Notes under the pieces: generated by a model
Told to the model about the DNA's origin: nothing
The model's input: only the letters and a program-made list of their open reading frames with translations
Database searches by the model: none
Position numbers and translations under genes: made by a program
Shown here: positions 40,028 to 48,806 of the stretch, piece after piece
Position numbering within the stretch: the first letter of the stretch is position 1
How the letters are laid out: each line of letters starts with the position of its first letter
Assembly (NCBI RefSeq): GCF_000316685.1
Contig: NC_019680.1
Span: 2,923,407 to 2,987,406 of the forward strand
Length of the DNA stretch: 64,000 nt
Direction of reading: 5' to 3'
Source: Synechococcus sp. PCC 6312
Lineage (GTDB): Bacteria; Cyanobacteriota; Cyanobacteriia; Thermosynechococcales; Thermosynechococcaceae

Positions 40028-40501
40028 TCTAGACCATATTAGAGGACAAATTTTGGCTAGGGCCGCTCATTTTGAGAGTCAGCAGAACGGGGTATGGCAT
40101 TGGCGCGACTGATTAGATAAACCATTGGTATGGTTAGTTATTAGTATGAATTTCATGTGCGGGATTTTAATTCCGATGTTAGGAAAAGATAGATTCAACG
40201 ATCAGGAAAAACCCGCCTCCTTCAACTAGTCCAATTTTTCATGTTCGCCCCAGGCCTGGTGGTGGTTGGCAAGTAAAACAAGAGGGAATCCGAAAAACTA
40301 AAAGCCTTTTTAACTCAGAAAGAGGCGACTCAGTTTCAAGCACAAGGATAAGAGCATAAACATAGAAACTCGACAGCGGCAACTCCTGGGGGATAATCCT
40401 CACCTAAGCTGGAGCGGCTCAAATTGTTACGATAAATCCCCAGTCTTTTAGATTTGTGATCTAAATCACTGTCAACAGTTGGTAGTTTGTCAACTTAAGT
40501 C
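40028..40501. other. Non-coding stretch with a DUF2188-like gene remnant
   Basis: About 470 bp without an intact gene between the hydrolase gene and the mobile region. At 40227-40345 the plus strand reads FHVRPRPGGGWQVKQEG and then IRKTKSLFNSE, which resembles DUF2188 proteins; a one-base shift is needed to continue KEATQFQAQG before a stop. It is therefore probably a frameshifted pseudogene, and its start codon is not clear. Confidence 0.4.
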
Positions 40502-41068
40502 TTAAGCGGGCCTAATCCGGTGAACCCAGGCCCCAGGCCGGGCGGGGTCAAACTTCCCAGCCTTGTAGAGATTAAAGCTGTGGCCTGGAGACTGACCCGC
40601 CACGCAGGCCGCATAAATTCCAAGACTAGAGTAGAAACCATCGTAAAAATTGGCCCCCGGCAAGTAACGCCAGGCCGGGAAATCAAACTCGGCCCAAGGG
40701 TCTTTAACTGAAAACCTTACTCCTAGGGTCTTTTGGTCAATTTCCACCGCGTCTAAGCAAATCACGTGACCACTACGGGTAAACCAGCCATGAGTGATTA
40801 GGAACTCCCCGGCCTGGAGCCAAGCTGCCATCTGGTTAATTGAGGCGGCCAGTTCAAAAGAGTAGCGGTTGCCAATGCGGGCCTGGATAAAGTTGCCCAT
40901 ATTGCCAGGACTCCCAGCCAGTCCGCGGGCCACCAACTCAGCCCTAACCGTCCTAATTTTTTCCTTGGGATAGCCTAAAGTCATGGCCACACAGGCAGAT
41001 TGGCAAGTTACGCTGTCCGGCTGCGGGAGATTGGTCGCCTTAACTTTAGTTTCAAAGAGCTTCCGCAT
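40502..41068 (-). CDS. C39-like cysteine peptidase
   Basis: A 188-residue protein that resembles the C39-like peptidase fold. The nucleophile cysteine lies in SVTCQSACVAMTLGYP, the histidine in GWFTRSGHVICLDAV, and an aspartate in VRFSVKDPWAEFD. The arrangement C ... H ... D matches papain-like C39 enzymes, which in bacteria process leader peptides or, in phages, can act on peptidoglycan. No signal peptide is visible. It is the last gene of the minus-strand cluster, where phages often keep endolysins; that role is inference. It follows a one-TM protein by 4 bp. Confidence 0.6.
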   Translation of the reverse strand: MRKLFETKVKATNLPQPDSVTCQSACVAMTLGYPKEKIRTVRAELVARGLAGSPGNMGNFIQARIGNRYSFELAASINQMAAWLQAGEFLITHGWFTRSGHVICLDAVEIDQKTLGVRFSVKDPWAEFDFPAWRYLPGANFYDGFYSSLGIYAACVAGQSPGHSFNLYKAGKFDPARPGAWVHRIRPA

Positions 41069-41072
41069 AGGT

Positions 41073-41318
41073 TCACCGTTTTAACTCTGCAATTAGTTTA
41101 TTTGTGGCCTCAGTGTTGAGCCGAATCGCATCTCCCAGGCTACCCAAACTTTTAGCCAGTTCCGACTTATCGGCCTGGAGATAGGAAACCTGTGGAACAC
41201 AGATCGTGTTGTAAAAAGCCAAAAATCCACCGCCCACACCCGCTAGTCCGGCACAAATAGCCGCAACCGTGGCCGTAGAAAGTCGGACAACAGTAAAGCC
41301 CTCGCGGTCAGTAGTCAT
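41073..41318 (-). CDS. Small one-TM protein, possible holin- or anchor-like
   Basis: An 81-residue protein with one membrane helix (TVAAICAGLAGVGGGFLAFY, about 18-37) and a C-terminal helix (ADKSELAKSLGSLGDAIRLN). The start ATG 41318 is followed by a short polar N-terminus. It lies 4 bp upstream of the C39-like gene and is probably co-translated with it. A holin- or spanin-like part is suggested by order only; the single helix and extended C-terminal helix do not define a known family. Confidence 0.5.
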   Translation of the reverse strand: MTTDREGFTVVRLSTATVAAICAGLAGVGGGFLAFYNTICVPQVSYLQADKSELAKSLGSLGDAIRLNTEATNKLIAELKR

Positions 41319-41380
41319 GGTTTTGGCCCCCAGGCCTGGAAGAACGCAAACAAGTTAAAACAGGGTCAGCCTACCCAAAA

Positions 41381-41803
41381 TTAGATTTTGTAAAGCTTAC
41401 CGTTGGGCCAGCGAAATTCTTTAACCTTTTTGGAATCGTTGAACTTGTTGAAACAGTCCGCCGCCGAGATGCCATAAGGTACTTTTAATTGTCTCCAGAC
41501 CTTAATGTCCTGGTTCTTCTTATTTTTCTTCGTCACCCCAGTCCAGCACCGAATCACCTTATGCCCAACTGTGACCGGCTTAGAATTGCCAGCGAGATAC
41601 TGACGACCCTTGCTATCAGTCGCCACCTTGAGGCCTCCCGCAACAGCTTCATCTGCGGTAGCTTCAGCTAAACCGCAGGCCGTTGCCGCTAACCGGTCAA
41701 CATAGGAGAACGCCTTAACATCCTTCTTCGCCCCATCCACTTTTTTCTTAACCGTGCCCCAAAGGATGAGCATCTTGGAGCCGCGGTCTTTAGTTGCAGC
41801 CAT
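41381..41803 (-). CDS. Hypothetical basic protein of the element
   Basis: A 140-residue lysine-rich protein (KKKVDGAKKDVKAFSYVDRL, then GHKVIRCWTGVTKKNKKNQD). No membrane helix or known domain was recognised. The tail WPNGKLYKI may be conserved. The minus-strand neighbours are separated by short gaps (about 50-60 bp), so it belongs to the element's late-gene-like cluster. It may bind nucleic acid or be structural, but this cannot be decided. Confidence 0.5.
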   Translation of the reverse strand: MAATKDRGSKMLILWGTVKKKVDGAKKDVKAFSYVDRLAATACGLAEATADEAVAGGLKVATDSKGRQYLAGNSKPVTVGHKVIRCWTGVTKKNKKNQDIKVWRQLKVPYGISAADCFNKFNDSKKVKEFRWPNGKLYKI

Positions 41804-41850
41804 AGCCGTTAAATCTCCCTAAAAAAATTGATTTTAGTCAAGTTGCCAGA

Positions 41851-42081
41851 TTAAGGAAGATACTCATCGGCTTCAATCGTCAACTCTCCCCCAGCCCCGG
41901 AAATCATAATCGGTAGAGTCACCCGCAAGCTAACCGTTTGTTCCTCGAAGTCGGGCTGAATGGTGATGTTGTCGGGCCGGTCTTCTTCCGGCACAGCTAA
42001 CTCTGCCAGTTGAGCCACCCGGGCCAGTTCCAGGATTTGACCTTCTAGAGTGGTGGAGGTGGTGATGTGTGCAGCAGCCAT
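41851..42081 (-). CDS. Hypothetical small acidic protein of the element
   Basis: A 76-residue protein without a recognised domain. It has an N-terminal helix (LEGQILELARVAQLAELAVP) and a beta-rich end (EEQTVSLRVTLPIMISGAGG, then ELTIEADEYLP). It resembles, from memory, small proteins found next to similar clusters in filamentous cyanobacteria, which would make this a recurring element gene; not verified. It starts at ATG 42081. Confidence 0.5.
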   Translation of the reverse strand: MAAAHITTSTTLEGQILELARVAQLAELAVPEEDRPDNITIQPDFEEQTVSLRVTLPIMISGAGGELTIEADEYLP

Positions 42082-42205
42082 AAAAGTCTCTCAAATAGAA
42101 CTGCCCCCAGAGTACAAAGTACCGTAACAGGTAACAGACTCTGGCTAGAGTTCAACCGAGAGGGTTAAGGCTCTCAATCAGACGCAGACGTGAAGTCTCG
42201 GTGAC

Positions 42206-42430
42206 TCAATCCTGCAAATTTCCACTGAATTTCTTAATGTGAGGGTGGTCAAAATCACCGAGTCGCCAGAGCAGAAACGTTCGGAGTTCTGAGGGTTTGA
42301 CCGCTTTTTCTCTTAACGCTGTGTCTAGTAATTTGTGTAACAAATAAAAATCAGGGTCAGCGAGGACTCTGATGACTTTGGTTGGTAAAGAACACTTCCC
42401 AGTTTGCCTTCGTGTTGTTGCCCGTGCCAT
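42206..42430 (-). CDS. Hypothetical protein overlapping its upstream neighbour
   Basis: A roughly 74-residue frame that overlaps the 3' end of the 235-aa gene by 74 bp in a different frame. The part beyond the overlap reads as a real protein: VLADPDFYLLHKLLDTALRE, then KAVKPSELRTFLLWRLG. The start is uncertain; ATG 42430 is used, and a start inside or after the overlap is possible. The helix-rich content and its place in the cluster support a gene; function unknown. Confidence 0.4.
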   Translation of the reverse strand: MARATTRRQTGKCSLPTKVIRVLADPDFYLLHKLLDTALREKAVKPSELRTFLLWRLGDFDHPHIKKFSGNLQD

Positions 42431-43064
42431 CGTAAAACACCACCTTATAGGGGTAAACCACAGAAGTATCTCGCCGTTCATCAACCTGGGTAAACGAGAC
42501 TTTGGCCTCTCTCACCCTCGGAACACTGATTCCTTTGACCAAGGCCTTAAAGACGCGTTCCCCCATCTTGGCCGAACCCGCATTGATGAAAATCTTGCTA
42601 TTGTCGGCAAGCCTAACGACCGTGGCCACGTTCCCTTTCTGATAAACCGGGAAATCGTAACCCTTTGTCCCTGATGCCTTGAGTTTCCAATGGGGAATAG
42701 TTAGGGGGTAACTTGGGCCCCAAAACTTGCCGTTTTTGAATTTGCGGTAGATAACGACTAGCTGGGGGACGCTGCCCCATTTGGTTTCATACCATTCAGG
42801 AATCGCCGCAATCCCATCTTTGGCCAGTTGCCCCCTAGACTTGACTAGGACGTAGAATAGCCAAAATCGGAATAGGGCCTTGATTGCGTTGTCGTTGTCC
42901 GTGACGGTACAGGCTGTTTTAAGAGTGCGCTGCCCTTTACTAAGAGCCTTGCCTTCCTCAGTCTTAAAGTGTTGGTTAACCCATTGGTTGTGGAGTTTAA
43001 CTGAGGTTTTTCTGAGATACTCCCAGCTTGCTGGATCAGGTTTAGTGCGATTGAAGTTTGTCAC
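42357..43064 (-). CDS. Hypothetical protein of the element (235 aa)
   Basis: A 235-residue soluble protein without a recognised domain. It starts MTNFNRTKPDPASWEYLRKT and contains a tryptophan- and aromatic-rich middle (FWLFYVLVKSRGQL, YPLTIPHWKLKASG). The start overlaps the 670-aa gene by 4 bp (ATGA), so both are translated together. Lysine and tyrosine rich; perhaps a structural component of the element. It contains no nuclease motif that I could identify. Confidence 0.5.
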   Translation of the reverse strand: MTNFNRTKPDPASWEYLRKTSVKLHNQWVNQHFKTEEGKALSKGQRTLKTACTVTDNDNAIKALFRFWLFYVLVKSRGQLAKDGIAAIPEWYETKWGSVPQLVVIYRKFKNGKFWGPSYPLTIPHWKLKASGTKGYDFPVYQKGNVATVVRLADNSKIFINAGSAKMGERVFKALVKGISVPRVREAKVSFTQVDERRDTSVVYPYKVVFYDGTGNNTKANWEVFFTNQSHQSPR

Positions 43065-45073
43065 AAATCAGTATCCTCTGACTCAGGAATATCTTTAGGA
43101 GTATCCAATCTGGCCAAGTTCTCAGCTTTTTTGTTTAGGAGTTTCTGCGCTTCATCGATAGCTTTATCGAACTCAGTTTTAGCGTTTTCCAAGTCTTTAA
43201 TGGTGTCTTGAGCCGTTTTTACTCCAGTCAAAACCATTTGCATTCCCGACAAAACATCTTCAGCTTGATTTAAGCGTGTGAAGAATTTAGTTGAAAAGTC
43301 TGGATTTGGAAGCTGCCAATTTAGCAAGTCATTATCAACTAAACCAGAGGCTTTTAAGGCGTTACTTAGTTCAGCATTATATTGTGCTGTCATCTCCAGT
43401 CCTTCTGAAATGTCGAGGAGCGCGGATTGAAGATTGGATAGCACGTTAGCAGCAGCTTGATAGGCTCGGTTAGATTGCTGCCAGGCCTGGTTTATAGACT
43501 CTAGAGTCTCTGTGCCGATCAAGCTTTCTAAAAGGTCTTGAGTTCCCTCACCAATAACTGTTGAAATTGACAAAGGTTGTCCATCGTCATCTTTGGGAGT
43601 AAGCCCGACTACACTTAATCCCAAATCAACTACGGCCATCAGCGTACTAACCACGTTAGAAGATAGTTGAGCCGCGTTGTGAAGCGTTACTAGCAACGTT
43701 AAAAGGTTGATTAGTTCCTGGGTTTTTTTGTTCCGCTTCAGGTTCTCTAAAGTCTCTTGAAAATTGCGCCTGACCTCTTGACCGTTTTCGCCAATCTCTC
43801 TGACTTTTTCGCCAATCGTATCTTTGAGGTCGTTTAACCTAGATACCGTATCAGTTACCTTCGTATCTAAGCCAGTGACTTTAAGGTCAAGGTTATTAAG
43901 CCTAGAAATAACTGGAGACAAATCAACCACTTCATCTAACCTAATCACAGTAATTTTAATCTCTCTAATTGCATCGTATAGATATTCTGAGTTACCTGGT
44001 AAAGGTCTAGGGATAGGTCTAAAATCTATTCCAGTTTGAACTAAATCTATAATAGGCTGTAAGGGATTATCAGTTTTAATTACTAATTGCAATAGAGGAG
44101 GTAAATAAGTTCCCCCTTCAGAAAATAGCCATCCTTCAGGAAACGACCATAAAATATCTCTACCGCTAAAATTAGCATCTCTAAAAGGATAGGATATTAA
44201 ATCCTGTTCTATTGTCTGAAAATAGATACTATCTAAGTTAGACTCATAAAATGGATTTATATTAAATTGATAAACAACATCATCTATATAATTTCCTGAA
44301 TAATGTTGTGATTCTATTCTTAAGGTCAAGTCATAACCTGTATTTACTTTTAAGCCTATTATCCTAGCTGTAGTTTCATCTAAATAAATGCCGTCATCTA
44401 TAGGCGGTTCGTTATCATCTTCTCTATTAACTTTTTTTAATAAAAGTTTGCCATTAGTTCTAGATGCTTGTTTGTCTCTATTCTCTGCCTTAATTACTAA
44501 TCTATAAATATCTCTATCTGTTATAAAGGTAACGCTACCTGATAACAATACTTCTGTAAAATCTTCTGAATCTAAACCCTTAAAGAATACCTTGATTAAA
44601 TCTTGTTGCCCCAATAAGGGTGGTTGTACTGACCAATTAAAGGTTATAGAATCGCCTAGATCAAATCTATTCTTATTAACTGTGACGTTTACAATAGGTT
44701 GAAACTGTCTAACTCCGCTATCGTTTCCTAAACCCTGAAAAGGAAAGTTTAAGTTTTTAAGATATTCTGCTAATAGGTCAGGTATTAAGTTACCCACTTT
44801 ATTAATTCTAAGTACTCTAGGACTAAAAGACGGCTTAGGCGTGGGAATATGCCTAGGAGTTATCCCTACAGTATTTAATGGCGGCCTATAAGTCGAATTA
44901 ATGGGTAAAGTTCTATAACCTTGCGGGGTTAAGATTGTTTGATAGCTAGGATTACCTGGAACTGTATTAACACGATTGTAAACGTTAGTAGTTAATACAG
45001 GCTTATTGTAAGAACTATTGCCTATACCTTGCCTTACTACTTGTCTTTGTAACTGTTGCTGTAAAGTTATCAA
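43061..45073 (-). CDS. Large coiled-coil protein of the element (670 aa)
   Basis: A 670-residue protein. An N-terminal stretch of about 110 residues is rich in proline, threonine and tyrosine, followed by beta-rich segments (VNVTVNKNRFDLGDSITFNW, VTFITDRDIYRLVIKAENRD) that look Ig-like, and a long alpha-helical C-terminal half with heptads (LDLKVTGLDTKVTDTVSRLN, then KVREIGENGQEVRRNFQETL). The arrangement, extended N-terminus, beta domain and coiled coil, resembles fibre or baseplate-type proteins, but no phage family was recognised. The gene is AT-rich and its 5' part lacks the CAGGCC motif, unlike its neighbours. It overlaps the 235-aa gene by 4 bp. Confidence 0.55.
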   Translation of the reverse strand: MITLQQQLQRQVVRQGIGNSSYNKPVLTTNVYNRVNTVPGNPSYQTILTPQGYRTLPINSTYRPPLNTVGITPRHIPTPKPSFSPRVLRINKVGNLIPDLLAEYLKNLNFPFQGLGNDSGVRQFQPIVNVTVNKNRFDLGDSITFNWSVQPPLLGQQDLIKVFFKGLDSEDFTEVLLSGSVTFITDRDIYRLVIKAENRDKQASRTNGKLLLKKVNREDDNEPPIDDGIYLDETTARIIGLKVNTGYDLTLRIESQHYSGNYIDDVVYQFNINPFYESNLDSIYFQTIEQDLISYPFRDANFSGRDILWSFPEGWLFSEGGTYLPPLLQLVIKTDNPLQPIIDLVQTGIDFRPIPRPLPGNSEYLYDAIREIKITVIRLDEVVDLSPVISRLNNLDLKVTGLDTKVTDTVSRLNDLKDTIGEKVREIGENGQEVRRNFQETLENLKRNKKTQELINLLTLLVTLHNAAQLSSNVVSTLMAVVDLGLSVVGLTPKDDDGQPLSISTVIGEGTQDLLESLIGTETLESINQAWQQSNRAYQAAANVLSNLQSALLDISEGLEMTAQYNAELSNALKASGLVDNDLLNWQLPNPDFSTKFFTRLNQAEDVLSGMQMVLTGVKTAQDTIKDLENAKTEFDKAIDEAQKLLNKKAENLARLDTPKDIPESEDTDL

Positions 45074-45079
45074 GGCAAT

Positions 45080-45424
45080 TTACCAGTAATTGGGCATGAC
45101 ATATGGTGCATCATTATCTGAAAAAGTATCTAAATTAGATGGACTAAAAATAAAGCTCCCATCTCCATTTGTAGGGATAAACAAAGTGATATACAGGAAA
45201 TTGTTAAAGCCTTGGTTATCTGGCAAAGTAGTAGTTTGCAATTTAGCTGGATAATCTAATACTCCCCCTCCTAAGTCCAGTTTTATATCTTGCTCTCTTA
45301 AGGCACTGATATAGGTGGCAATCATGAGATAGAGAATTATTTCAAATCCATTAGTTAAATTACTTTGCTGATTGCCTTCTATATTGCCCACTAAATAGCT
45401 AGACAAATCTTCGGAAATTTTCAC
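45080..45424 (-). CDS. Hypothetical protein of the element (114 aa)
   Basis: A 114-residue protein, first gene of the minus-strand cluster, ending 6 bp before the 670-aa gene. It contains NGFEIILYLMIATYISALRE and FNNFLYITLFIPTNGDGSFI, beta strands and one hydrophobic helix-like stretch, without a recognised domain. ATG 45424 is preceded by AAAGGAAAT on the minus strand, a good ribosome site. The promoter should lie in the dyad-rich region 45425-45613. Confidence 0.5.
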   Translation of the reverse strand: MKISEDLSSYLVGNIEGNQQSNLTNGFEIILYLMIATYISALREQDIKLDLGGGVLDYPAKLQTTTLPDNQGFNNFLYITLFIPTNGDGSFIFSPSNLDTFSDNDAPYVMPNYW

Positions 45425-45483
45425 GGTTATTTCCTTTGTAATTAGGATTGCTCTTATTTTGGGATAAGTTTTTAAGATTGGGA

Positions 45484-45513
45484 AGTGTCAACTTTTACAT
45501 AAAACTTGACACT
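45484..45513. repeat. Large dyad, AGTGTCAA arms, upstream of the recombinase gene
   Basis: AGTGTCAA-C-TTTT, then ACAT, then AAAA-C-TTGACACT: a 30-bp interrupted palindrome that is perfect except for the central ACAT and one C/C pair. With a second dyad at 45580 sharing the TGTCAA core, it is a candidate binding or crossover site of the adjacent recombinase, or an operator of the divergent genes. Confidence 0.6.
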
Positions 45514-45519
45514 ATTAAA

Positions 45520-45550
45520 AATCCCCTAAGCCTTGACTGGTAAGGGGATT
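45520..45550 (-). terminator. Hairpin AATCCCCT...AGGGGATT, terminator-like on the minus strand
   Basis: Eight-base arms at 45520-45527 and 45543-45550. On the minus strand the stem is followed by a run of T (TTTTTAAT), which fits an intrinsic terminator for minus-strand transcription coming from the right; it may instead be part of the attachment region. Confidence 0.45.
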
Positions 45551-45579
45551 GCTGTGTTAGCTTTAGTTTGAATAAAAAA

Positions 45580-45622
45580 CACTGTCAATATTTTACAATT
45601 TCTAGAAGGTTTCTTGACAGTG
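45580..45622. repeat. Second large dyad, CACTGTCAA/TTGACAGTG arms
   Basis: Perfect 9-bp arms (45580-45588 and 45614-45622) flank 25 bp. The right arm includes the GTG start codon of the recombinase, so binding here could both mark a recombination site and repress the gene. The TGTCAA core is shared with the dyad at 45484-45513. Confidence 0.6.
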
Positions 45623-46177
45623 AAAGTTAATCGCTCAGGCCAAGCTGAACCACTTACAAAAGAACAGTTCCTAACTGTTTTCCGCAGTTTGTCACCACCC
45701 CATCGGTTTATTCTTGCCCTTACTTGGCACTGTGCTGAGAGAGTCGGGGCAGTTTGCAATTTGGAAGTGGCTCACGTTTTCCAGGCCAACGGTAAACCCA
45801 GGCCGACCCTTTTAATTCCAGGCCGGATTAGGAAAGATAAAGTTACCCGTGAAATTCCGGTGACGCGGGGCCTGGGGCAGATTTTAAGGGAGATTACGAT
45901 TCCTGACAGCCCCTGGCTCTTTCCCAGTCAGCTTAATCTAGGCCGACCCATGAACCCCCAGGTTTACTCACGCGCTCTTAAAACTGAGTTCCTTCGTTTA
46001 GGCCTCTCTGGGTATTCGACCCACTCGGCCCGGCGGGGAGCGATCACTCTTCTGTCCCAGGCCGGACTGAACGCTAGGCAAATTCAGAAAATCTCCGGCC
46101 ATGCCTCTCTCAATTCTGTCCAGCTTTACTGTGAGGTTTCCCCGGCTGAGGTTGAGGCTGGGTTGGCTCTACTCTGA
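45620..46177 (+). CDS. Tyrosine recombinase (short phage-type integrase)
   Basis: A 186-residue integrase without the N-terminal arm-binding and core-binding domains of larger integrases. The catalytic set is visible: arginine in WHCAERVGAV, the H-x-x-R of STHSARRGAITLL, and H then Y in GHASLNSVQLYCEV. The catalytic domain alone, about 180 residues, is typical of small tyrosine recombinases. The start GTG 45620 lies within the second dyad; TTG 45614 is an alternative. It overlaps the convergent DUF6788-like gene by 52 bp at the 3' end. It probably integrates or excises the element. Confidence 0.85.
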   Translation: MKVNRSGQAEPLTKEQFLTVFRSLSPPHRFILALTWHCAERVGAVCNLEVAHVFQANGKPRPTLLIPGRIRKDKVTREIPVTRGLGQILREITIPDSPWLFPSQLNLGRPMNPQVYSRALKTEFLRLGLSGYSTHSARRGAITLLSQAGLNARQIQKISGHASLNSVQLYCEVSPAEVEAGLALL

Positions 46178-46503
46178 TCTGGTAGGTCTTTGCCGATATA
46201 CCGAGTACGGGTCTTGCCCCCTTCTTTCCAGAACGCGTACCAATAAGGCCCATGGGGGCAACTCTGGCACTCTGACTTCCCGCAGTTTACGGGCTTTAAC
46301 TGGTAACTGACTCCAGGCCCCCCTAACTCCCCTTGAACCCTATCACTCTTATCTAACTTTGGTGAACCTATCACGCTTTTGGTTAGATAAGACTTTTCTA
46401 ACGGGTTAGACTGTGCTGGCCTCTCTCCCGCGCCTATTCCTTCTAGTGGCAGAGGTAACTGATCTCCCTCCAGGAGCCTGGACGGATCAACTTTTGAACT
46501 CAT
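46126..46503 (-). CDS. DUF6788-like protein
   Basis: A roughly 125-residue protein. The C-terminal half reads VSYQLKPVNCGKSECQSCPH and GPYWYAFWKEGGKTRTRYIG, which matches the DUF6788 pattern (KCGK..C, C..GHGPYYY, EGGKTRTRYI). The two C pairs may bind zinc. Similar sequences occur beside mobile elements; the function is unknown. ATG 46503 (MSSKVDPSRLLEG) overlaps the repressor gene by 4 bp (ATGA), so the pair is one unit. The 3' end overlaps the recombinase gene in the opposite direction. Confidence 0.65.
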   Translation of the reverse strand: MSSKVDPSRLLEGDQLPLPLEGIGAGERPAQSNPLEKSYLTKSVIGSPKLDKSDRVQGELGGPGVSYQLKPVNCGKSECQSCPHGPYWYAFWKEGGKTRTRYIGKDLPDQSRANPASTSAGETSQ

Positions 46504-46736
46504 TGCCGATGGATGCGCTTGATGTTTTCTAGGGCCTCTACCAGTTCTGGTAATGTGCAGTTCAATATTTGGCAAAGTCTTTGCATTTCTACTGGGTTAA
46601 GTGTGGGCATAGATTTACCGTTTTCCCATTCGGAGACAGTTTGACGCGTTACTCCCAATAGCTCGCCTAAACGTTCCTGGCTAATCCCTACTTTTTGTCT
46701 AAGCATTTTGAACGTCACCAAATCATCTAGTTTCAT
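46500..46736 (-). CDS. XRE-family (Cro/CI-like) transcriptional repressor
   Basis: A 78-residue helix-turn-helix protein: LRQKVGISQERLGELLGVTR followed by QTVSEWENGKSMPTL, a standard HTH_3 domain with the recognition helix around TRQTVSEW. It begins MKLDDLVTFKML. It faces a strong promoter/operator on the other strand, 7 bp from its start (46744-46799), and is expected to control that divergent promoter and itself. The small size and genomic context match phage or element master repressors. Confidence 0.85.
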   Translation of the reverse strand: MKLDDLVTFKMLRQKVGISQERLGELLGVTRQTVSEWENGKSMPTLNPVEMQRLCQILNCTLPELVEALENIKRIHRQ

Positions 46737-46743
46737 TGTAAGG

Positions 46744-46799
46744 TTGACCCGACATTATGGGATGTGTATGATGGCAATGTCGGGTTAAGCCGACAATTA
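46744..46799 (+). promoter_or_regulatory. Divergent promoter/operator of the element
   Basis: TTGACC at 46744-46749 and TATGAT at 46767-46772 are exactly 17 bp apart, a strong sigma-70 promoter on the plus strand. Inverted repeats TTGACCCGACATT (46744-46756) and AATGTCGGGTTAA (46776-46788) match at 12 of 13 positions; a third partial copy CCGACAATTA follows at 46790-46799. The left arm covers the -35 and the right arm lies just after the -10, as a repressor operator would. Confidence 0.8.
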
Positions 46800-46888
46800 G
46801 GAGAAAGCAACAAAGCGGGAACCCGTCACCAGGCCCCGCCAACTTGTTTTGCTCAATTAACTTGATTATCTCAATTGGAGTAGAGACA

Positions 46889-47101
46889 GTGGAAAACGAT
46901 TTTAGAAAAGCGCCAGAGTTCGGGGAAGTGTTTCTAGACTTTATCCGGGCCTATGGCTTTGCCCAGATTGTGCTGACACGCGATCAGGTTTTAGGGCCTC
47001 AAGACTTCTGTGCTTTGCAAATTGCAATCACCGATTTACTTGAATCAATGACCGCTATTTATGACATGGCCTGGCCTGAGGGGAAGAAAGATGGAGAGTA
47101 G
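46889..47101 (+). CDS. Hypothetical small protein of the element
   Basis: A 70-residue protein, VENDFRKAPEFGEVFLDFIR followed by AYGFAQIVLTRDQVLG, helical and acidic with no recognised domain. GTG 46889 is favoured by GGAG at 46877-46880; the frame extends to ATG 46844 with a hydrophobic N-terminus (MFCSINLIISIGV), an alternative. First gene of the plus-strand transcript from the operator-controlled promoter. Function unknown; it may be an element regulator. Confidence 0.5.
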   Translation: MENDFRKAPEFGEVFLDFIRAYGFAQIVLTRDQVLGPQDFCALQIAITDLLESMTAIYDMAWPEGKKDGE

Positions 47102-47330
47102 CCCCTACTTCGTTCAGTTTCCAGGCCTGGGCCTGGCCATCAATTTAGCTCAAGTCCAAAAAATTGAATACGACTCAGCCAAGCGGGAAGCCGCAATCTA
47201 TCAGGCCTTCGGACTCAAGACTTACCTAACTGGGGAGAACTGCGACTTTTTCCTTGATTCTCTGAGGCAAGTACCCGGAGTCCAAAAGTTTGATTTTGGG
47301 GGAACTGAGGAACCTGATCACCCCTATTAA
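47091..47330 (+). CDS. Hypothetical small protein of the element, followed by a ribozyme
   Basis: A 79-residue protein: MESSPYFVQFPGLGLAINLA, then VQKIEYDSAKREAAIYQAFG. It overlaps the previous gene by 11 bp and its TAA (47328-47330) is immediately followed by the hammerhead ribozyme. No domain recognised. The CCAGGCCTGG palindrome is inside the coding region (47121-47130), which suggests it has been resident in this lineage for some time or came from a related strain. Confidence 0.5.
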   Translation: MESSPYFVQFPGLGLAINLAQVQKIEYDSAKREAAIYQAFGLKTYLTGENCDFFLDSLRQVPGVQKFDFGGTEEPDHPY

Positions 47331-47394
47331 TTCCGCCTGATGAGGCCGGATGATCCACCGGCCGAAACTGCTCAGTTGTTGGGCAGTCGCGGGA
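47331..47394 (+). ncRNA. Type I hammerhead ribozyme
   Basis: All invariant hammerhead positions are present in order: stem I 5' strand TTCCGC (47331-47336), core CTGATGA (47337-47343), stem II GGCCGG/CCGGCC with an 8-base loop (47344-47363), core GAAA (47364-47367), stem III CTGCTC/GGGCAG with a 7-base loop (47368-47386), and TC (47387-47388) before the cleavage site. The stem I 3' strand GCGGGA (47389-47394) pairs with TTCCGC (one G-T wobble). The open ends lie in stem I, so it is type I. Cleavage is predicted between C47388 and G47389. Confidence 0.93.
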
Positions 47395-47419
47395 AGGATC
47401 GCAACCTGACCGTAGGGAT

Positions 47420-47528
47420 GCCTTGAAGATAAAGTAGGCTTTGGCCTTTCCGGATTTGTAGGCTCATATCCCTTTACCCTTAAGTCTTGAAAGTAAAGCA
47501 GGCTTCGGCCTCTGGGTGATTTGCAGAC
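47420..47528 (+). ncRNA. Pair of paralogous RNA hairpins between ribozyme and IS110-like transposase
   Basis: Two similar 44-45 nt units, 47420-47463 and 47484-47528. Each has an inner hairpin AGGC-loop-GCCT, with loop TTTG in the first and TTCG, a stable tetraloop, in the second. The outer arms are GCCT/AGGC in the first and GTCT/AGAC in the second: a C-G pair in one is a T-A pair in the other, a compensatory change that supports RNA pairing. IS110 elements encode a guide (bridge) RNA next to the transposase, so this is a candidate, but not a proven, guide RNA. Confidence 0.6.
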
Positions 47529-47573
47529 TTTCTATAGGGTTTTAGCGACTATTCACCTGTGCTAGGAAAATTT

Positions 47574-48800
47574 ATGCTGATTGCTGGCCTTGATGTCTCG
47601 AAGGCTGATGTTGTCGTGTGTCTGATTGACACCGATCAACCACTCCCAGACCCCAGAGAACTGTATCTTACTGGCAACTTTCCCCGGCTCACCACCACGG
47701 CGGGGGGATTGAAAGCCTTGCTTGAATTGAAGCCTGATGTTTGTGTTTTAGAACCCACAGGCACGAATTACTCTAAGTTTTGGTGTTACAAACTGAACCA
47801 GGCCGGGGTAAAACTACTGCTAGTGTCTCACTCTAAGGTCAGACGCTACAGAGAGTGTATCCTGTCTGAAGATAAGGATGATGAGGGGGATTCTCTCGCC
47901 TTGGCCTATTACGGGGTTCAGAATTTTAAGAATGATGGGGCCTTTCTCAGAAGACGGGATGATGTTGCCCAACAAATGCGGGAGAGATGCCACCAACTAG
48001 ACCACTTGAGCCGGATTCAATCGCCGATCATCAATCGCCTTAAACAAGACCTGGCCTGGCAATTTCCAGAGGAAGCCAGCAAGAGGGTTGAGGCGGTTCT
48101 GTTTTGGCGATGGCTGGCCGGGGAAGCCAAGTCAAAACGCTATGACAATGCTTTAGCAAATACCTGCGGCCTGGGGCTGACTGAATCAACCCGTTACCAT
48201 GCAAGGCTGTTAATTCAGTTATTCCCCCGGCAACTCCAACTCACTAGGGAACTGGCAACCTTGCTCAAAGACCCAAGGTTTAGACCCTATCGCAAAGTCT
48301 TTGCTAAGTATGGCTTCGGAGAGAAACTAGAGGCGATTCTAATCAGCCACATCTACCCACTGTCTAACTTTCTGGGGGAAGATGGCTTACCCATTGCCCC
48401 ATGCACCAGGTCTAAGAAAGACCCGAAAAAACAGACGGTTAAACACCTTTCCCTGAGACGGTTTCAGAAAACCCTGGGCTGTTCTCCTACCCGTGAATGG
48501 TCAGGCAAAAAGAACAAAGGTTCTAAACAGGCCAAGCTGGCCGGGTCTGCTCAGTGCCGAGTCGGGCTATGGCAGTGGCTATTTACCCGGATTGAGAAGA
48601 AAGGGGCCAGGCCCAAGAACTTGCCTCAGACCGCCTGGTTAGTCTCCGAAACTCTAGTGCAAGGATCAATTCTGGAATACTTTGAGTATCAGAAAAGCAC
48701 CGCTGTGATTAAGCTGGCCCGGTCTCGCACTATTGCCAAGGTGACTAAACTTCTGTTCTACGATCTGGTTGCTGAGTTAAGTCCAGACTCTCAGAAGTAA
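47574..48800 (+). CDS. IS110-family transposase (DEDD recombinase)
   Basis: A 408-residue recombinase. The RuvC-like N-terminal domain shows IAGLDVSKADVVVCLI with D, the central VCVLEPTGTNYSKFW with E, and EDKDDEGDSLALAYYG with the last acids of the D-E-D-D set. The C-terminal domain has a helix-hairpin-helix-like FGEKLEAILISHIYPL and a serine- and lysine-rich stretch (WSGKKNKGSKQAKLAGSAQ) before a final helix, in the position of the IS110 serine domain. ATG 47574 has AGGAAAA at 47563. It cleaves and joins element DNA, guided by a structured RNA in studied members. Confidence 0.8.
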   Translation: MLIAGLDVSKADVVVCLIDTDQPLPDPRELYLTGNFPRLTTTAGGLKALLELKPDVCVLEPTGTNYSKFWCYKLNQAGVKLLLVSHSKVRRYRECILSEDKDDEGDSLALAYYGVQNFKNDGAFLRRRDDVAQQMRERCHQLDHLSRIQSPIINRLKQDLAWQFPEEASKRVEAVLFWRWLAGEAKSKRYDNALANTCGLGLTESTRYHARLLIQLFPRQLQLTRELATLLKDPRFRPYRKVFAKYGFGEKLEAILISHIYPLSNFLGEDGLPIAPCTRSKKDPKKQTVKHLSLRRFQKTLGCSPTREWSGKKNKGSKQAKLAGSAQCRVGLWQWLFTRIEKKGARPKNLPQTAWLVSETLVQGSILEYFEYQKSTAVIKLARSRTIAKVTKLLFYDLVAELSPDSQK

Positions 48801-48806
48801 GAAAAG

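Follow-up and report, generated by a model that had tools for sequence, protein, structure and literature searches.

A hammerhead ribozyme directly before the probable bridge RNA of a cyanobacterial IS110-type recombinase

Elements of the IS1111 group bear subterminal inverted repeats and have their RNA downstream of the gene. In IS621, a bridge RNA pairs through its target loop with the target and through its donor loop with the joined element ends, with a common core (PMC11208160), and IS110-type integrases are also known in filamentous phages, namely phiOH16/Zuza of Thermus and Nf of Neisseria (PMC11437467). A locus that resembles these systems is found in Synechococcus sp. PCC 6312, within a stretch of 64,000 nucleotides (contig NC_019680.1, positions 2,923,407 to 2,987,406; hereafter the window, numbered from its first letter and read on the plus strand unless stated otherwise) of a cyanobacterial chromosome from a genome of 3,720,499 bp. 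The element concerned would run from 40434 to about 48801 (about 8.4 kb) and contains an IS110-type recombinase gene preceded by a hammerhead ribozyme and two RNA hairpins. Judged from sequence comparison, this arrangement is read, with a probability of roughly 0.88, as a hammerhead-trimmed bridge RNA of the adjacent recombinase.

The original prediction was that two units, at 47420-47463 and 47484-47528, align over their full length and represent a conserved RNA. The coordinates are right, and the units are identical in 33 of 45 alignment columns with one gap, giving a score of 22 that was reached by 2 of 2000 random window pairs. The outer arms show the compensatory exchange that had been pointed out, GCCT/AGGC in one unit and GTCT/AGAC in the other (C-G to T-A), and the inner hairpin is kept, being AGGC-TTTG-GCCT in one unit and AGGC-TTCG-GCCT in the other. 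In each of the resulting guide loops, an outer stem of 4 bp encloses an inner hairpin that is flanked by single strands on its left and right. Single-sequence folding energy gave no signal for the units of the window (z-scores of -0.65 and -0.05, and -0.10 for both together), and the claim of a conserved guide-RNA structure is therefore based on covariation among homologues. Across 24 aligned relatives, 96.6% of the cells in the guide loops are paired, 12 of the 23 pairs are changed on both sides, and the covariation score was reached by none of 500 shuffles. Covariation across homologues had been fixed beforehand as a test on which the prediction could fail, and it came out in favour for the guide loops and for the ribozyme alike (each 0/500). 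The comparison supports the view that the adjacent recombinase is served by a bridge RNA whose target-binding loop corresponds to the first unit and whose donor-binding loop corresponds to the second. The target-binding loop (47415-47472), which includes the first unit, has its left guide at 47424-47433 and its right guide at 47447-47457; in the donor-binding loop (47484-47528), the left and right donor guides are located at 47488-47497 and 47512-47522, and the core is AAA in both. The bridge RNA lies before the recombinase gene in all relatives examined.

The gene downstream of the hairpins had been described as IS110-like, and this is borne out by its match to the IS110 family transposases of NCBIfam (NF051857, 390 bits against a cutoff of 180). 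The open reading frame at 47559-48800 encodes 413 residues, with the first in-frame ATG at 47574. It matches Pfam PF01548 with an E-value of 2e-10, as expected of a DEDD RuvC-like domain, and the residues G10, D12, E65, D108 and D111 are invariant in 10 relatives. The match to PF02371 is weak (18.4 bits vs 21.3), and S315-G316 is invariant in the relatives, in keeping with a C-terminal domain that bears a catalytic serine. An AlphaFold2 model of the protein has a mean predicted local distance difference test score of 85 and is poor at residues 312-325, so that its confidence is low around S315; a Foldseek search with this model gave alignments to ISCro4 and IS621 along the whole chain, with template modelling scores of 0.45-0.64. 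A single-sequence protein scan of genome contigs yielded no relative, whereas an alignment-based search did find relatives, and one plasmid, CP150887.1, bears a copy of the recombinase.

Complementarity of the loops to donor and target DNA, the other check proposed at the outset, was assessed through junction predictions in the relatives and also spoke in favour. Guides were read by eye from 36 loci, with core positions assigned by hand, and both junctions of each locus were then predicted, the left one as target guide, core and a fixed TCCCCA. At the right junction, all 12 letters agree in 21 loci and 11 of 12 in another 11 (32/36 together), while the left junction agrees at 14/14 in 17 loci and at 13/14 in two, including the window, the sequence being absent for most of the others. 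When guides were swapped between loci as a control, the best scores centred on 9 at the right and 10-11 at the left. Because these first guides had been hand-read and TCCCCA had been learned from three loci, the right side was repeated in an automated way with a fixed pattern on 31 further loci, which gave 19 exact matches to the five letters of the right target, as against 1 of 930 swapped guides. Copies within the same genome (L054/L055 and L059/L060) have differing guides, each of which fits its own insertion site. The core is GAA in most loci, AAA in the window, GTA in L077 and GAT in L058, and it is identical across all four guides.

On the donor side, the left donor guide matches the right end at 7/7 in many relatives, and pairing of the right donor guide with the left end extends over 8-10 bp and leaves a single base bulged in 19 of 19 cases; the left-end motif of the window was found in 18 relatives. 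An unbulged right donor guide did not predict the left end, and this register was replaced by the bulged register TCCCC, which is seen in L054/L055 and the window. As befits a bridge RNA, the target loop in the relatives is complementary to the DNA on either side of the insertion site, and the donor loop to the joined element ends. The latter includes the end junction in a tandem copy, the copies L118 and L120 (JAHHGX010000010.1) lying about 15.4 kb apart and forming a direct right-end/left-end junction, TTAGAGTGAATCCCCAAT.

Upstream of the hairpins, a ribozyme had been invoked, and by consensus a hammerhead is indeed present at 47333-47392. The elements that define the class (CUGANGA, GAAA, an NUH cleavage triplet and a three-way junction) are complete in the window, where the core consists of CTGATGA (47337-47343), GAAA (47364-47367) and GTC^G, with predicted cleavage between 47388 and 47389. 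Stem I is formed by CCGC (47333-47336) and GCGG (47389-47392), stem II by GGCCGG and CCGGCC, and stem III occupies 47368-47386. Within an alignment of 42 sequences, 94.5% of the hammerhead cells are paired and 17 of 20 pairs are changed on both sides. Loop II of the ribozyme, GATCC (47352-47356), forms a predicted pseudoknot (47352-47400) with GGATC (47396-47400), a segment that belongs to the guide's 5' hairpin and lies on the 3' side of the predicted cleavage site; all five of its pairs are changed on both sides, with 90.4% of cells paired. For hammerhead and pseudoknot together, the covariation score is 0.619 compared with 0.165 for shuffles, none of 500 of which reached 0.619.

The hammerhead was found by eye and by regular expression upstream of the same recombinase in 26 of 29 cyanobacterial genomes, namely those above the recombinase family cutoff. 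A strict scan of a second, partly overlapping collection was positive at 51 of the 80 relatives' loci (two of the 51 are doubtful, and four loci have too little sequence) and in none of 1600 shuffled regions. Against the Rfam family RAGATH-1-hammerhead (RF03152), the window scores 25.8 bits, less than the gathering cutoff of 56.3, which places it outside this family, and at curated thresholds Rfam has no match in the window and none in 20 relatives. A reading in which the two units form a mere tandem repeat, accidental or unrelated, and the core of the ribozyme matches by chance would agree with this absence of Rfam matches and with the fact that neither units nor ribozyme are thermodynamically prominent in the window alone. 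Dozens of relatives contradict such an explanation through their covariation, recurrence and predicted junctions, and it is scarcely credible; the units are better regarded as a conserved RNA, as was first proposed.

The predicted cleavage product, which would start GCGGGAAGGATCGCAACCTGACCGT, would form a hairpin from its first nucleotide, the predicted start of the released RNA being GCGGGAAGG. This hairpin (47389-47413) has the 3' strand of ribozyme stem I as its 5' strand. Upon folding, a hairpin beginning at nucleotide 1 of the product was obtained for 27 of 28 unique relatives and for 405 of 2800 shuffles. The ribozyme fold and the 5' hairpin of the guide are mutually exclusive, because both use GCGG and the pseudoknot strand, which also lies within that hairpin. 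In the proposed mechanism, the bridge RNA would be transcribed within a longer transcript from the upstream genes of the element, and the hammerhead directly before it would cut that transcript, freeing GCGG from stem I to refold into the first guide RNA stem. Loop 1 would hold the specificity for the genomic target, and loop 2 that for the joined ends of the element (right end, core, left end), and the recombinase with its RNA would join the end junction of the circular element to the target at the common 3-bp core, usually GAA and here AAA.

Alternatively, the bridge RNA could be genuine and the hammerhead mainly a means of expression control, which separates or destabilises the upstream and recombinase mRNAs while the 5' end of the guide is set otherwise. 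The ribozyme does lie directly after a small open reading frame (47061-47330) and ahead of the recombinase gene, and relatives in which no ribozyme is detected retain the guide RNA; yet the cleavage site is the first nucleotide of a conserved hairpin, and there is covariation between loop II and the guide's 5' hairpin, which ties ribozyme to guide and makes a role confined mainly to expression unlikely. The occurrence of a guide RNA without detectable hammerhead, in L014, L015 and L028 and, by the strict scan, also in L106, L108, L112, L118 and L127, weighs against a hammerhead-trimmed bridge RNA as well, and implies that the ribozyme is not indispensable. So does the right side of the window copy, where the bases after the element end are AAAAG and the guide predicts TCCGG, and where the third core base differs.

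At the left, the window copy fits better. Its left end (40434-40443) consists of the core AAA followed by TCCCCAG, with ACGATAAATCCCCA accounting for the 13/14 agreement given above; the left target guide AAGATAAA matches the left flank ACGATAAA (40429-40436) at 7/8, and 10 bp, interrupted by one bulged base, form between the right donor guide and the left end AAATCCCCAG. The probable right end (48793-48801), AGAAGTAAG, overlaps the stop codon and has the same position relative to it as CTAGAGTGAA in many relatives; it agrees with the left donor guide at 6/7 (AGAAGTAA at the stop codon). A search for a better right end downstream gave at best 9/12, which is chance level, and an empty site for the element was not found in the relatives' regions upstream of the neighbouring gene. 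The window copy may be decayed, since its right target half mismatches the guide: the right target may have been lost or changed, or the guide may have drifted. As for the suggestion of an IS110 guide RNA with two loops, it stands in the relatives and on the left side of the window, the only side to which the target loop of this copy is complementary, but not for the right target half, nor does the length of the element suit a small insertion sequence.

Variation at the ribozyme position was also observed among the relatives. In L014/L069, L015/L070 and L028/L087, a plain hairpin takes the place of the hammerhead and the guide RNA is kept; L069 retains the loop TGACTCACC, which is also found in ribozyme loop II of relatives. 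Palindromic GCGATCGC-like insertions of about 30-40 nt occur within hammerhead stem II in L003 and L027 and are apparently tolerated. In genome G280, the two elements L022/L058 and L040/L056 have 850 bp in common at 98%, including the hammerhead, and diverge fully about 25 nt past the cleavage site; from this pattern, guide loops and recombinase look swapped as a single module.

Insertion of the delimited elements, whose junctions are 4.6-18.4 kb apart with the recombinase at the right end, is precise. For the 18.4-kb copy in G382, a congener of the host has the uninterrupted site with 96% identity over 300/300 nt, and GAA is common to both element junctions; in four elements, the reading frame stays open when the flanks are joined. 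A tyrosine recombinase of about 190 residues is present in 18 of the 19 delimited elements, as would be expected if this small enzyme performed integration and the IS110-type protein belonged to an insertion sequence hitchhiking at the element edge. The bridge RNA, however, specifies ends and target sites at both outer ends, 5-18 kb apart. That 19 of 19 elements have an IS110-type gene follows from their selection, but this selection has no bearing on the guide match at the far left end; integration by the tyrosine recombinase is very improbable. A large protein, typically of 780-936 residues, occurs in 16 of 19, and nearly all cargo, the small proteins included, is without a match in Pfam or PHROGs.

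The window element (40434-48801) and L052-L089 represent a recurring type composed of a minus-strand operon with a large coiled, proline-rich or collagen-like protein, the small tyrosine recombinase, a helix-turn-helix (HTH) regulator and the IS110-type gene. In the window, an inverted repeat, GACCCGACATT/AATGTCGGGTT at 46735-46756 and 46776-46797, lies between the HTH gene and the plus-strand small open reading frames and is probably the operator of a repressor. This element type is possibly virus-like; a known phage finds no support, because no relatives of the recombinase were found in IMG/VR contigs and phage records.

If the reading as a hammerhead-trimmed bridge RNA is true, this would be an example from nature in which a ribozyme matures a guide RNA for DNA recombination, and it would account for the use of IS110-type recombination by large cargo elements with the guide RNA kilobases from the left end. 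It would also provide naturally occurring bridge recombinases that differ in their cores, insert up to 18 kb and come with a guide that trims itself, and it suggests a function for cyanobacterial hammerheads that Rfam misses. No paper linking a hammerhead with IS110 or a bridge RNA was found in the openly licensed literature, bioRxiv preprints not being covered.

Among described systems, IS621 and the IS110-group bridge RNA systems (Durrant 2024, PMC11208160; PDB 8WT6) are similar in having a DEDD recombinase with a serine and the same fold, and also in the 5' hairpin, the target loop followed by the donor loop upstream of the gene, and left and right guides with a common core. The present system differs from IS621 in the hammerhead that precedes the RNA, in a core of 3 nt (GAA, AAA, GAT, GTA) instead of the dinucleotide CT, in the single bulged base of the right donor guide pairing, and in elements of 5-18 kb with the RNA near the right end, because of which an IS621-like end-junction promoter would be kilobases from the RNA. 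It is probable that these possibly virus-like cyanobacterial elements use the bridge-RNA recombinase as their integrase, and that a hammerhead coupled to the guide by pseudoknot and strand exchange frees it from a long transcript, so that the end-junction promoter is no longer needed. The seekRNA elements of the IS1111 group (PMC11187229) also have an RNA-guided DEDD recombinase, but the RNA described here lies before the gene. In the filamentous phages, too, an integrated element of several genes has an IS110-type gene at one of its ends; a hammerhead and guide RNA are not reported there (PMC11437467), and nothing in the present cargo matches Pfam or PHROGs in a way that would mark an inovirus. 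The conserved core and three stems are those of the Rfam hammerheads (RF03152 and others), whereas 0 of 20 relatives reach any Rfam threshold and the tertiary contact is made with the downstream guide RNA, through a pseudoknot. The RAGATH-18-derived guide RNAs of IS607 TnpB (PMC11061315) are likewise transposon guide RNAs first catalogued in a ribozyme search, a parallel only, as enzyme and RNA differ. Overall, the system is rated as of the bridge RNA kind by its structure, guides and enzyme, and as distinct by its ribozyme, core, bulge, size and position.
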